From Chloroflexi bacterium CFX6 (GTDB taxonomy: Bacteria; Chloroflexota; Anaerolineae; Anaerolineales; Villigracilaceae), in contig SZPG01000027.1 in NCBI GenBank assembly GCA_030263595.1, positions 1-64,000 on the forward strand: DNA of 64,000 nucleotides. Direction: 5' to 3'. How positions within the stretch are numbered: position 1 is the stretch's first letter; the number at the start of each line of letters is the position of its first letter. A program made the translations under genes and the position numbers. Below, one piece after another: positions 6,538 to 48,987 of this stretch. A model generated the notes under the pieces. That model was not told the origin of the DNA, made no database searches, and saw nothing but the letters and a program-made list of their open reading frames with translations.

Positions 6538-6634
6538 ACCGCGAAGAAACGAAGGGCGCGAAGTTTTTTGAACGCCGCGATGGAGCCTACTTCGTGTCAT
6601 CGAGGTCTCTTCGCGTTCTTCGCGGCTTCGCGGT
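6538..6634. repeat. Imperfect inverted repeat (ACCGCGAAG/CTTCGCGGT)
   Basis: ACCGCGAAG at 6538-6546 is mirrored by CTTCGCGGT at 6626-6634, with further partly matching GCGAAG/CTTCGC motifs between. It fills the spacer before the acyl-CoA dehydrogenase gene and looks like a degenerate palindromic element. Confidence 0.5.
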
Positions 6635-10880: not shown

Positions 10881-10998
10881 CGTCATTGCGAGGGCGCTCT
10901 TCCCGAAGCAATCCCCACCACTGCCTCGTCATTGCGAGCGGAGCGAAGCAATCTCCATCGCCGCGAGGGGATTGCTTCTCGAAGACTCGCAATGACAG
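10881..10998. repeat. Palindromic intergenic repeat, CATTGCGAG/GAAGCAATC family
   Basis: One direct half (CATTGCGAGGGCGCTC, then CGAAGCAATCCCC) is followed by a full palindrome: CGTCATTGCGAGCGGAGCG-AAGCAATCTCC mirrored by GGGGATTGCTTC-TCGAAGACTCGCAATGACA. The same family recurs at 17356, 41475 and 48413. These REP-like elements can fold into long hairpins in RNA or single-stranded DNA. Confidence 0.9.
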
Positions 10999-29788: not shown

Positions 29789-29801
29789 ACACTGCGCCTT
29801 T

Positions 29802-29835
29802 CCCCTCTCCCTGCGGGAGAGGGCTAGGGTGAGGG
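29802..29835. repeat. Palindromic repeat, CCCCTCTCCC/GGGAGAGGG family
   Basis: CCCTCTCCC-TGC-GGGAGAGGG followed by CTAGGGTGAGGG. Same family as one insertion in the heparinase gene (47523). It lies between vapC and the gene-end repeat copy 1. Confidence 0.85.
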
Positions 29836-41474: not shown

Positions 41475-41576
41475 CGTCGTTGCGAGCGGCGACTCGCGTC
41501 ACGAAGCAGTCTCCTCGCTGAAAACGGGGATTGCTTCGGGATTTCGATGCTGCCGCATCCCGACCCTCGCAATGAC
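41475..41576. repeat. Palindromic repeat, CATTGCGAG/GAAGCAATC family
   Basis: CGTCGTTGCGAGCGGCGACT, CGAAGCAGTCTCC, then mirrored GGGGATTGCTTCGGG and CCCTCGCAATGAC, with a nested hairpin CGGGATTTCG..GCATCCCG. Full-length copy in the same intergenic gap. Confidence 0.9.
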
Positions 41577-41611
41577 AAACAGGAAACATCTTATCAGCAA
41601 GGAGAGAGAAC

Positions 41612-46593: not shown

Positions 46594-46721
46594 GATTACC
46601 TTACACTCTTAAAAATGGGACGCGGGCGAGCGCAGGAAACGCGGATGCAAGGCGCTTTTTCGGGCATTTCCTCTAAAAATCCGCGTCCATCCGCGTCCCA
46701 ATACCAAAGTGTAAGGTAATC
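46594..46721. repeat. MITE-like inverted repeat element
   Basis: 128 bp with perfect 14-base terminal inverted repeats, GATTACCTTACACT at 46594-46607 and AGTGTAAGGTAATC at 46708-46721, and a second nested pair GGGACGCGG/CCGCGTCCC. Short TTACAAG motifs flank both ends (TGTTACAAG left, AGTTACAAG right), possible target duplication. No coding capacity. Confidence 0.75.
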
Positions 46722-46782: not shown

Positions 46783-48987
46783 CTACCCTTCGACACGGCT
46801 TCGCCAGTCAGGGCGGCGCTCGACCAGCGGGACTTTCTTTGAATTGATTTTCAACACACTCCCCTCCATTTCGACGACATCCCCCTCGAACCCGAAGAAC
46901 GTCCAAAATGTGACCTGGGACTGGGTCGCCTCAAGCGCCACCGAGATGGCTGGTTCTTTATGACCATAATAACGCGATCTCCAGCCTCGGGTCGAATCGG
47001 GATCCGCGCGGACGAGGGAGAATTTGCCGTTTCCTTCCATCATCCCGACTTGTATCTTGCACTTCATCTCATCCAGAGATAACACAACCGAACTCCCTTT
47101 TTGCTCAAAGAGATAATCGCCGAGCAGCCACTGAAGCGCGTAATGATGCGACTCACTCGCTGTGAGATTATCCACCACCAACCAGCGGTCATTTTCAAGC
47201 GACATGACCGTTCGTTTGTGGGATACAGGCTTGTATCCATCATGCTCGCCCTGCCAAAGATTTTTATCGTGCCTGATAACCTTGCCCTTCGACCAGTTCG
47301 TCCACGTGAAGCGGCTGAGCAGGGTCATCTGGTCTTTGCCATCCACGATCACAGTGTTGTGAACGGAGGTATGCGCGAGCCCGTTTCGCCAGACGCCTTG
47401 TCCGCTGTAAAGATACGTCCCCGCGTCAACCGCGATGTTATGACCGTGAATCCACAAGTCCACGTGGAGTTGGTCGTTGGAATTGCGGAGGAGGTAGACT
47501 CCGCCGTTGGGGAAGGAGGTTTCTCCCTCATCCCCAGCCCTTCTCCCGTGGGGAGAAGGGAGCCAGAGTCCCCCTCTCCCTGCGGGAGAGGGGGTAGGGG
47601 TGAGGGCGCTTTCACCACAAACCCAAAACAAATCCTCATCCCATGGACCAGGTTCAAAGAGGCGTTCGCCTTTGGCGATGTACCAGCCCAGTTGCAACAG
47701 CGGACGATAATCCGTGAAATCGCAGTTGTTCAAGGGCAAAACCAACGCGCCGTCGTTGGAACCGTAGACGGGCATTTGTCCTGTTGCGGGGTCAATGAGG
47801 CGGGAGAGGTATTCGAGGGAGGAAGAGATGGAGGAGTAAAGAGAATTGGAGAATGTAGAATTGTTCAGCGCGCCTAAACGAATCGCATAGAGATAAATGT
47901 GAAGGATGAAGCGATGGTAGTTGAGGGAGTACATGGCGTAACTGCCATCGGGGAAGATTTGATCTATTGCTTCCTGCTCGAGAATTCGTTTACCGAGGGA
48001 AAGATATTTTTTGGCGTGTTCGAGTTCGGGGAAGAGCAGACCAACCAGCCACAATCCGAAGGCTTCGCTGATGGTGTGGTTGCTGCGCGTGGAGATGGCG
48101 TAGCCGATGTTCTTGTAGATGCGTTCGGCTTGCGCAGCGACGTAGAGGGTGAATTTTTCGATTCGCTGAGGCGTTGAAAAAGGTGAACTGGAGAATTGGA
48201 AGAAGCCGAACGTCCATGCCATGAGGCGGAGGGCGATCTCCTGTCCGTCCATCCAGTTGGGTCCTGTGTTGGGAGGGTTGCGAAGCGCCCAGTCTTCGAT
48301 GAGAGTCCAGAAGGCTTCGGGATATTTTTCATCTCCCGTCGCGGCATAAGCGCGGACGAGGGTGTAGACGAGGGCGAATCGGTTCGGTTCCCAGATGAAT
48401 TTAATGTCAACATGTCGCTGCGAGGCGCTCCTGGTTTTTGCCGAAGCAGTCTCCTCGTCGTGGGAGATTGCTTCGGCGCCCTTCGGTCTCCTCGCAATGA
48501 CATCATCATGTGGGATTTGTGACCAGTGATTGTTCACGTCATTCTCCCGAAGGGCATCGGGACGATGTGAGCGAAAGCGAAGAGTCTCTGACTGCGGGAG
48601 GAGAGACCCTTCGCCGTTATCGCGGCTCAGGGCGACATAATCCGTGTGCCAGTCGGGAGGGAAGCCAGTTTTGACGAATTGGTGGGAGAAGTATTTGAGT
48701 TCGCCGTCGAGGAGGCGGTCCGCTTCGGCGATGGCGGTTTGGGGATTCCATGAAACTTGTTGGTTTCGATACGTCCCGCGAAGAGCGGCGGGACTACTCA
48801 ACCAACGTATCTCTCGACCAGCGGGGTTGGTAGAAACAAGATTTTTATAATCATTCCACTCACCCACTGGCATTTGCAGGCGGATGAGTCCCGTGCGGAG
48901 GCGGAAGGCGTAGGCGAGGCGAAAGAGCGTCCAACGCGGACCAAGTTCTCGGTAGAGGGAGGCGAATGCGCGGAGGGTAGAAATCAT
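46783..48987 (-). CDS. Heparinase II/III family protein with in-frame palindromic insertions
   Basis: A 734-residue polysaccharide lyase-like protein. The alpha/alpha-toroid domain is seen in FIWEPNRFALVYTLVRAYAA, WALRNPPNTGPNWMDGQEIA and STRSNHTISEAFGLWLVGLL; the beta-sandwich in VDLWIHGHNIAVDAGTYLYS and AHTSVHNTVIVDGKDQM (His-rich heparinase core). Four separate palindromic repeats interrupt it without breaking the frame (47523, 48413, 48537, 48756), and the C-terminus VERRPDWRSRVEG is also repeat-like. No signal peptide is evident. It probably acts on envelope or capsule glycans, next to a WecA-like gene. Confidence 0.82.
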   Translation of the reverse strand: MISTLRAFASLYRELGPRWTLFRLAYAFRLRTGLIRLQMPVGEWNDYKNLVSTNPAGREIRWLSSPAALRGTYRNQQVSWNPQTAIAEADRLLDGELKYFSHQFVKTGFPPDWHTDYVALSRDNGEGSLLPQSETLRFRSHRPDALRENDVNNHWSQIPHDDVIARRPKGAEAISHDEETASAKTRSASQRHVDIKFIWEPNRFALVYTLVRAYAATGDEKYPEAFWTLIEDWALRNPPNTGPNWMDGQEIALRLMAWTFGFFQFSSSPFSTPQRIEKFTLYVAAQAERIYKNIGYAISTRSNHTISEAFGLWLVGLLFPELEHAKKYLSLGKRILEQEAIDQIFPDGSYAMYSLNYHRFILHIYLYAIRLGALNNSTFSNSLYSSISSSLEYLSRLIDPATGQMPVYGSNDGALVLPLNNCDFTDYRPLLQLGWYIAKGERLFEPGPWDEDLFWVCGESALTPTPSPAGRGGLWLPSPHGRRAGDEGETSFPNGGVYLLRNSNDQLHVDLWIHGHNIAVDAGTYLYSGQGVWRNGLAHTSVHNTVIVDGKDQMTLLSRFTWTNWSKGKVIRHDKNLWQGEHDGYKPVSHKRTVMSLENDRWLVVDNLTASESHHYALQWLLGDYLFEQKGSSVVLSLDEMKCKIQVGMMEGNGKFSLVRADPDSTRGWRSRYYGHKEPAISVALEATQSQVTFWTFFGFEGDVVEMEGSVLKINSKKVPLVERRPDWRSRVEG
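47523..47606. repeat. Palindromic insertion d inside the heparinase gene
   Basis: Two adjacent perfect hairpins: CCCTTCTCCC-GTG-GGGAGAAGGG and CCCCTCTCCC-TGC-GGGAGAGGGG, bounded by CCCTCATCCCC and GGGGTGAGGG. It encodes a Pro/Gly/Arg-rich block (TPTPSPAGRGGLWLPSPHGR and on). Same family as 29802. Confidence 0.92.
48413..48502. repeat. Palindromic insertion c inside the heparinase gene (CATTGCGAG family)
   Basis: GTCGCTGCGAGGCGCTCC, CCGAAGCAGTCTCC, mirrored GGAGATTGCTTCGGC and CTCGCAATGAC. Encodes DDVIARRPKGAEAISHDEET and following residues up to SASQRH. Same family as 10881, 17356 and 41475, which are intergenic. Confidence 0.92.
48537..48637. repeat. Repeat insertion b inside the heparinase gene
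   Basis: CGTCATTCTCCCGAAGGGCA, AGCGAAGAGTCTC, then GAGACCCTTCGC and GCTCAGGGCGACA: a degenerate inverted element of the CTTCGC/GCTCAG..GACA type. Encodes ALSRDNGEGSLLPQSETLRF, then RSHRPDALREND. Confidence 0.8.
48756..48840. repeat. Palindromic insertion a inside the heparinase gene
   Basis: CTTGTTGGTTTCGATACGTC, CCGC..GCGG hairpin, GGACTACTCAACCAACGTAT and CTCTCGACCAGC, ending GAAACAAG. It resembles the GGTTTCGATACG/CTCGACCA intergenic repeat type. Encodes residues around STNPAGREIRWLSSPAALRG, then TYRNQQ. Confidence 0.8.

Follow-up and report, generated by a model that had tools for sequence, protein, structure and literature searches.

In-frame palindromic repeats of several families in the same loops of a heparinase II/III-type lyase gene of Anaerolineales

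Introduction

The Rickettsia palindromic elements (RPEs) are short palindromic repeats of several families, which lie in frame in many unrelated genes (PMC10969869, in the portion drawn on here), and the lesson earlier taken from Rickettsia is that selfish palindromes can turn into protein. As for REPs, the sections used of PMC3733652 describe GTAG and CGTC repeats inside coding genes of several species, some genes being hit twice; in two Xanthomonas species, recB carries REPs that differ from each other but lie at about the same site. GTAG repeats are also recorded there from Chloroflexi, the intragenic REPs being from other species. Among the open-licence papers listed on the subject, none describes palindromes within coding sequence in Anaerolineales.

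In the window, i.e. the whole stretch of 64,000 nt analysed here, which is part of a 4.07-Mb draft genome, four palindromic repeats are found in one gene for a polysaccharide lyase (table 1). With the RPEs, as described in the portion cited, they have in common that they are short, palindromic, dispersed, in frame and of several families, and this likeness, proposed in an earlier note together with the presence of several families in a single gene, is now supported by the alignment of homologues. They differ from RPEs in that they belong to another phylum, the likeness being one of features, and in that the same loops of the lyase gene are re-used across species. Like the intragenic REPs in the sections cited of PMC3733652, the repeats lie within coding sequence, but the lyase case spans 59 compared genes, with at least five repeat families in four loops of a single gene. 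The phenomenon as such is known and the present example of it, which extends over many species, is real; what is new is the setting and the use of the same loops by several families.

The lyase gene and its four inserts

The product of the host gene combines a helical toroid with a beta domain, and matches both Hepar_II_III_C (5.5e-31) and Hepar_II_III_N (1.9e-26) of Pfam above the cut-offs. Its AlphaFold model, which is of middling quality (55 sequences used, mean pLDDT 69.3, pTM 0.70), finds its best fold matches among the PL17 alginate lyases (best Z 22.1), with heparinase III at a Z of about 17. With the N- and C-terminal domains present and a consistent fold, the gene belongs to the heparinase II/III type.

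The frame of 734 codons is uninterrupted throughout, and profile models and folding bear out what the earlier note had read from the letters, namely four in-frame palindromic repeats of four families in a single lyase gene. That these families are dispersed also holds, each of the four being matched in the genome outside this gene. Insert a has relatives at E up to 0.01 in four other places, all of them weak (E 1.6e-4 to 0.0068), insert b has them in ten other places, and inserts c and d have many among the 50 genome matches listed. Insert c is directly N-terminal of the helical domain, and insert d occupies the linker that joins the helical and beta domains. In the AlphaFold model, pLDDT is below 50 at residues 117-200 (inserts b and c) and 467-509 (insert d), and 57-65 at residues 61-80, within insert a. 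The estimate that 100 or more residues had been added stands as a measure of what was inserted (369 bases, about 120 residues), but not as a measure of net growth, as part of each loop is displaced; relative to the usual empty state, loops b, c and d are longer by about 26, 29 and 16 residues, respectively.

Table 1. Positions in the window of the lyase gene, its inserts and further repeat copies. HMM, part covered by the profile match; z, folding compared with dinucleotide shuffles, all four inserts folding better than the shuffles.
Feature	Position	Strand	Residues	Basis or remark
Host gene, 734-aa heparinase II/III-type polysaccharide lyase	46783..48987	-		one open frame, four repeats
Insert a, F3 element (GTAG hairpin ... 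CGTATCGAAACC)	48754..48835	-	about 51-78	HMM core 48761-48804, E 4.3e-13; hairpin z -2.5
Insert b, F2 element and second small hairpin	48537..48645	-	about 115-150	HMM core 48568-48637, E 6.8e-13; z -2.6; second hairpin to about 48537
Insert c, F1 element (TGTCATTGCGAGG ... CCTCGCAGCGACA, 90 nt)	48412..48504	-	about 162-192	HMM 48413-48503, E 7.9e-16; z -7.1
Insert d, F4 element (CCCTCTCCC ... GGGAGAGGG)	47526..47610	-	about 460-487	HMM 47527-47605, E 6.3e-17; z -4.7
Junction of 51-nt in-frame deletion	47475..47476	-		alignments with relatives
F1 copy, intergenic	41476..41577	+		profile match
F1 copy, intergenic	10928..10997	+		profile match
Partial F4 copy, intergenic	29799..29834	-		profile match
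F5-like copy, intergenic	6551..6634	+		profile match, weak (E 3.2e-4)

Filled and empty loops among homologues

Of 100 genomes of the family, 93 were found to contain relatives, and 58 loci came from a scan of GTDB contigs. Comparison of 84 loci yielded 62 distinct homologues, 59 of which, including that of the window, were aligned; L162 (partial), L168 and L169 (both distant) were dropped before counting, while L035 (at a contig end) and L036-L038 (distant) had been left out of the homologue set. All 59 aligned homologues are single intact open reading frames. Whether loops a, b, c and d are short or filled varies with the species, and the same four loops hold repeats of at least five families across many species (seeds F6 and F7, without relatives in the 851-kb sample described below, are excluded from the family count). 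By inspection, a fifth loop, near residue 376, carries F1-like elements in three species.

At site c, where occupancy was scored by length and is firm, an F1 element is present in 19 of the 59 genes, in two orientations, and a loop of 6 residues in the other 40. At sites a, b and d the family labels were assigned by simple text rules and are rough; for example, site a of L011 figures under ‘empty/other’ despite the GTAAGGGCGAGG...CTCGCCCC hairpin in its loop, and site d of L030 was put under F5. With this proviso, F2 elements alternate at site b with loops of 6 to 14 residues, the site being empty in 39/59 homologues by the rough rule, and the linker at site d contains F4, F5-like or F3 copies, or none (empty in 13/59 by the same kind of rule). 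By inspection, the F1 elements at site c of L019 and L123 contain extra short palindromic stretches, also in frame.

The earlier note had reasoned that homologues without palindromes but with the same residues at these positions would speak against insertion. The aligned homologues that lack the palindrome also lack these residues. Filled loops also occur in genomes assembled as single contigs (G058 and G063), and an assembly artefact is therefore disfavoured. The lengths of the elements at site c are divisible by three in 19/19 cases, while the full-length F1 copies found elsewhere, with ends set by the model and not by TGTC/GACA, fall into all three length classes (4, 6 and 9 of 19), with lengths divisible by three in 4/19. 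Since a single length class is found at site c and all three elsewhere, it seems that the frame is kept by selection on the host gene.

These observations are quite probably best explained by a combination of the spread of palindromes, the purging of those that break the frame, the presence of tolerant loops and the exchange or inheritance of some filled alleles. Short palindromes of REP- or MITE-like kind, among them F1 to F5, would disperse through Anaerolineales genomes and insert regardless of reading frame; insertions within genes would then be purged unless the frame is kept, no stop is added and the loop is extendable. The lyase would offer at least four such loops, two of which beside domain boundaries, and in the history of the protein family these would have gained, lost and regained inserts from different repeat families, some of the filled alleles being presumably inherited or exchanged between species. 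The inserts would be translated as disordered linkers, probably without a specific role. Dozens of homologues with filled, empty and refilled loops make up a natural experiment on the acceptance of foreign sequence by a protein, and bear on which loops tolerate inserts, on how the frame is policed and on how inserts turn over. They also carry a warning for annotation, as peptides derived from repeats (e.g. LTPTPSPAGRG and SLLPQSETLRF) can belong to intact genes.

Turnover and number of insertions at site c

On a quick tree, built with the loop columns left out, site-c occupancy of the 59 genes requires at least 16 changes against a mean of 16.2 with shuffled labels, i.e. no phylogenetic signal was found by this comparison. 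Sites a and d retain some ancestry, because their changes (at least 20 and 25, with rough labels) are fewer than those of shuffled labels (28.5 and 30.8). Contents can differ between close relatives: the cores of L023 and L143 are 95% identical and their contents differ at c, and those of L032 and L034 are 96% identical and their contents differ at d.

How many independent insertions at site c lie behind this pattern is less certain than their nature. A possible, though on balance doubtful, alternative is that one or a few old insertions were followed by loss, by exchange between species and perhaps by inversion in place, which would alter the number of events and leave the nature of the inserts unchanged. 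The place is identical in 19 genes and, for 6/6 site-c elements tested, a site-c match in another species outscored the best copy of the own genome among the loci compared (and was itself outscored, for L013, by a genomic copy from another species). The latter result favours site-c alleles that are shared between species and, because the 19 copies share their place as well, insertions at c may number well below 16. On the same side, copies in reverse orientation give somewhat better alignments with forward ones once the latter are reverse-complemented, and over 40 codons around loops b and c L023 is marginally nearer to L134, L123 and L142 (0.89, 0.89 and 0.88) than to its sister L143 (0.87), a weak sign of exchange. 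Against a small number of insertions, the F1 subtype of site c also occurs dispersed outside it, G089, G082 and G008 having full-length copies at 84-87%; L130 and L131 have flanks that most resemble those of empty relatives (L140 and L126), which points to insertion or loss in place; and loop d switches family altogether. Inversion at site c is possible and is not needed, as the dispersed subtype allows both orientations to arise there without it.

Density of elements in the lyase and its surroundings

The explanation by dispersal, purging and tolerant loops leaves one observation partly unaccounted for. At the 59 homologue loci, 64 profile matches lie in 129 kb of lyase sequence, 16 in 66 kb of non-coding DNA and six at gene edges, copies shared by descent being included in these counts; inside the 176 kb of other called genes at the same loci there are none. 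The first models were seeded from the lyase, and the count was repeated with models made only from copies outside the lyase gene, which gave 70 matches inside the lyase, in 40/59 genes, and 13 elsewhere in the loci. An excess of density over the flanking non-coding DNA is not predicted by loop tolerance alone.

It would be explained if the lyase loops were landing pads, insertions there being targeted or beneficial and the alleles acting as loop cassettes that pass between species and tune folding, translation or substrate access; this reading is a speculative one and is considered unlikely. Also unlikely is that the repeats are useful as such, as ready-made linkers or mRNA hairpins at domain boundaries, with their turnover diversifying the lyase or tuning its translation. 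Besides the density above that of non-coding DNA and the lack of matches inside neighbouring called genes, the location of c and d at domain boundaries and the better folding of the four stretches than of their shuffles fit such usefulness. However, a given insert is absent in many species (c in 40/59 and, by the rough rule, b in 39/59 and d in 13/59), the inserts vary in both family and sequence, and they are predicted to be disordered.

Integrity of the window copy

The lyase of the window lacks, through a 51-nt in-frame deletion, 17 near-invariant residues that include RPSHA; in the alignments, the deletion was seen in none of the relatives compared. The activity of this copy is therefore doubtful, and it may be inactive or misassembled. 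The absence of these residues is also what would be expected if the window gene were decaying and, as a pseudogene, free to accept insertions, which is judged improbable: its frame is intact, the relatives with filled loops retain the 17 residues, and the differences from the nearest relative, L157, at the three codon positions (11%, 8% and 32%) point to a lyase core under constraint.

Reading frames of the repeats within genes

The 20 copies of F4 within genes fall into all six strand/phase classes (4, 4, 4, 2, 2 and 4), the phases on the opposite strand being approximate, with F4 nearly its own reverse complement and some copies in tandem, and the peptides encoded plainly differ in frame (LTPTPSPAGRG, SPLAPLPKGEG, PHPQPLSQRERG). 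The earlier proposal, that selection acts on the repeats so that they stay translatable in one frame, can draw on the number of open frames in 24 intergenic F1 copies (2.96 of six, against 1.82 after base shuffling), but is disfavoured by the several frames in which F4 is read and by the three length classes of full-length F1 copies elsewhere, and is rejected as very improbable.

Other copies in the window and in sampled genomes

Within the window, the repeats are otherwise intergenic, as had been noticed, the other F1, F4, F5 and F8 places being found between genes called by a purpose-made hexamer script, whose calls are not annotations. The statement does not extend genome-wide to F4. In an 851-kb sample, made up of the window and sampled stretches and with a G000 part that favours repeat-bearing contigs, 17 of 31 F4 places are internal to called genes (several of the 31 being partial or tandem copies), compared with 2/34 for F1 and 0/7 for F8. 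One of the two internal F1 copies (L075) is doubtful, as it is near the gene start and the coding score upstream is poor, so that the start may be wrong. F8 is a further palindromic family (GATTACCTTACACT...AGTGTAAGGTAATC), seen in the window at 46594-46721; it is intergenic in 7/7 places of the sample, and intergenic or at gene edges in 7/7 places at the homologue loci.

F4 inserts occur in several recognizable enzymes, where they make a loop longer than in solved homologues: by ~10 residues in an aldehyde oxidoreductase, which also carries an F5 copy, by ~14 in a kynureninase and by ~5 in an alcohol dehydrogenase. In these bacteria, therefore, in-frame palindromes are no rarity, and the lyase represents an extreme case.

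Some single genes may be mentioned in their own right. Both F4 and F5 inserts are found in a xanthine dehydrogenase/aldehyde oxidoreductase gene (L067:4915-7809, G000:C110), an in-frame tandem array of three F4 copies in a gamma-glutamyltranspeptidase gene (L076:17866-19599, G000:C116), and F2 and F4 copies in frame in an aminoglycoside/hydroxyurea phosphotransferase-like gene (L039:2247-3245, G058). At L065:17456-19999 (G000:C110), a single open frame runs from a homocysteine methyltransferase/pterin-binding part through an F4 repeat to a DUF559 part, which looks like a fusion of two genes.

Element ends and transposases

F1 elements bear terminal inverted repeats (TGTC...GACA) and are present in many copies, as MITEs are; their ends are mostly TGTC and in a minority CGTC (the two ends being tallied one base out of step). 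No clear target duplication was found for them, the junctions differing from empty relatives by a few replaced bases, nor a linked transposase, two points in which they would depart from MITEs; in the flanks examined there was no target motif or conserved flank. Insert a alone resembles a GTAG REP, as depicted in the sections cited of PMC3733652, in being a short stem-loop tagged GTAG at one end. By inspection, GTAG directly precedes the stem in this insert only, and it is not claimed for b, c and d.

As to mobilization of F1 to F5 by a RAYT, no linkage was found at the Y1_Tnp loci of the window's genome and of the genus. Five Y1_Tnp matches exist in this genome, and within about 1.5 kb of them none of F1 to F5 was detected at E up to 0.01. 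Among 33 Y1_Tnp loci of the genus, F1, F2 or F4 is nearby in five, all of which adjoin a long conserved gene that is not a typical RAYT. Some of the Y1_Tnp loci are flanked by local repeats; in the case of L106, the open reading frame used for this was probably one of the wrong strand.

The long conserved gene, exemplified by L090 (G000:C98:24135-24491), consists of a long N-terminal part and a C-terminal part that matches Y1_Tnp (HUH transposase), and is also found at L088, L089, L091, L092, L094-L096 and L103-L105. In the alignment, the histidines of the HUH motif appear to be replaced, and the gene has the look of a transposase that was domesticated and then retained in the genus.
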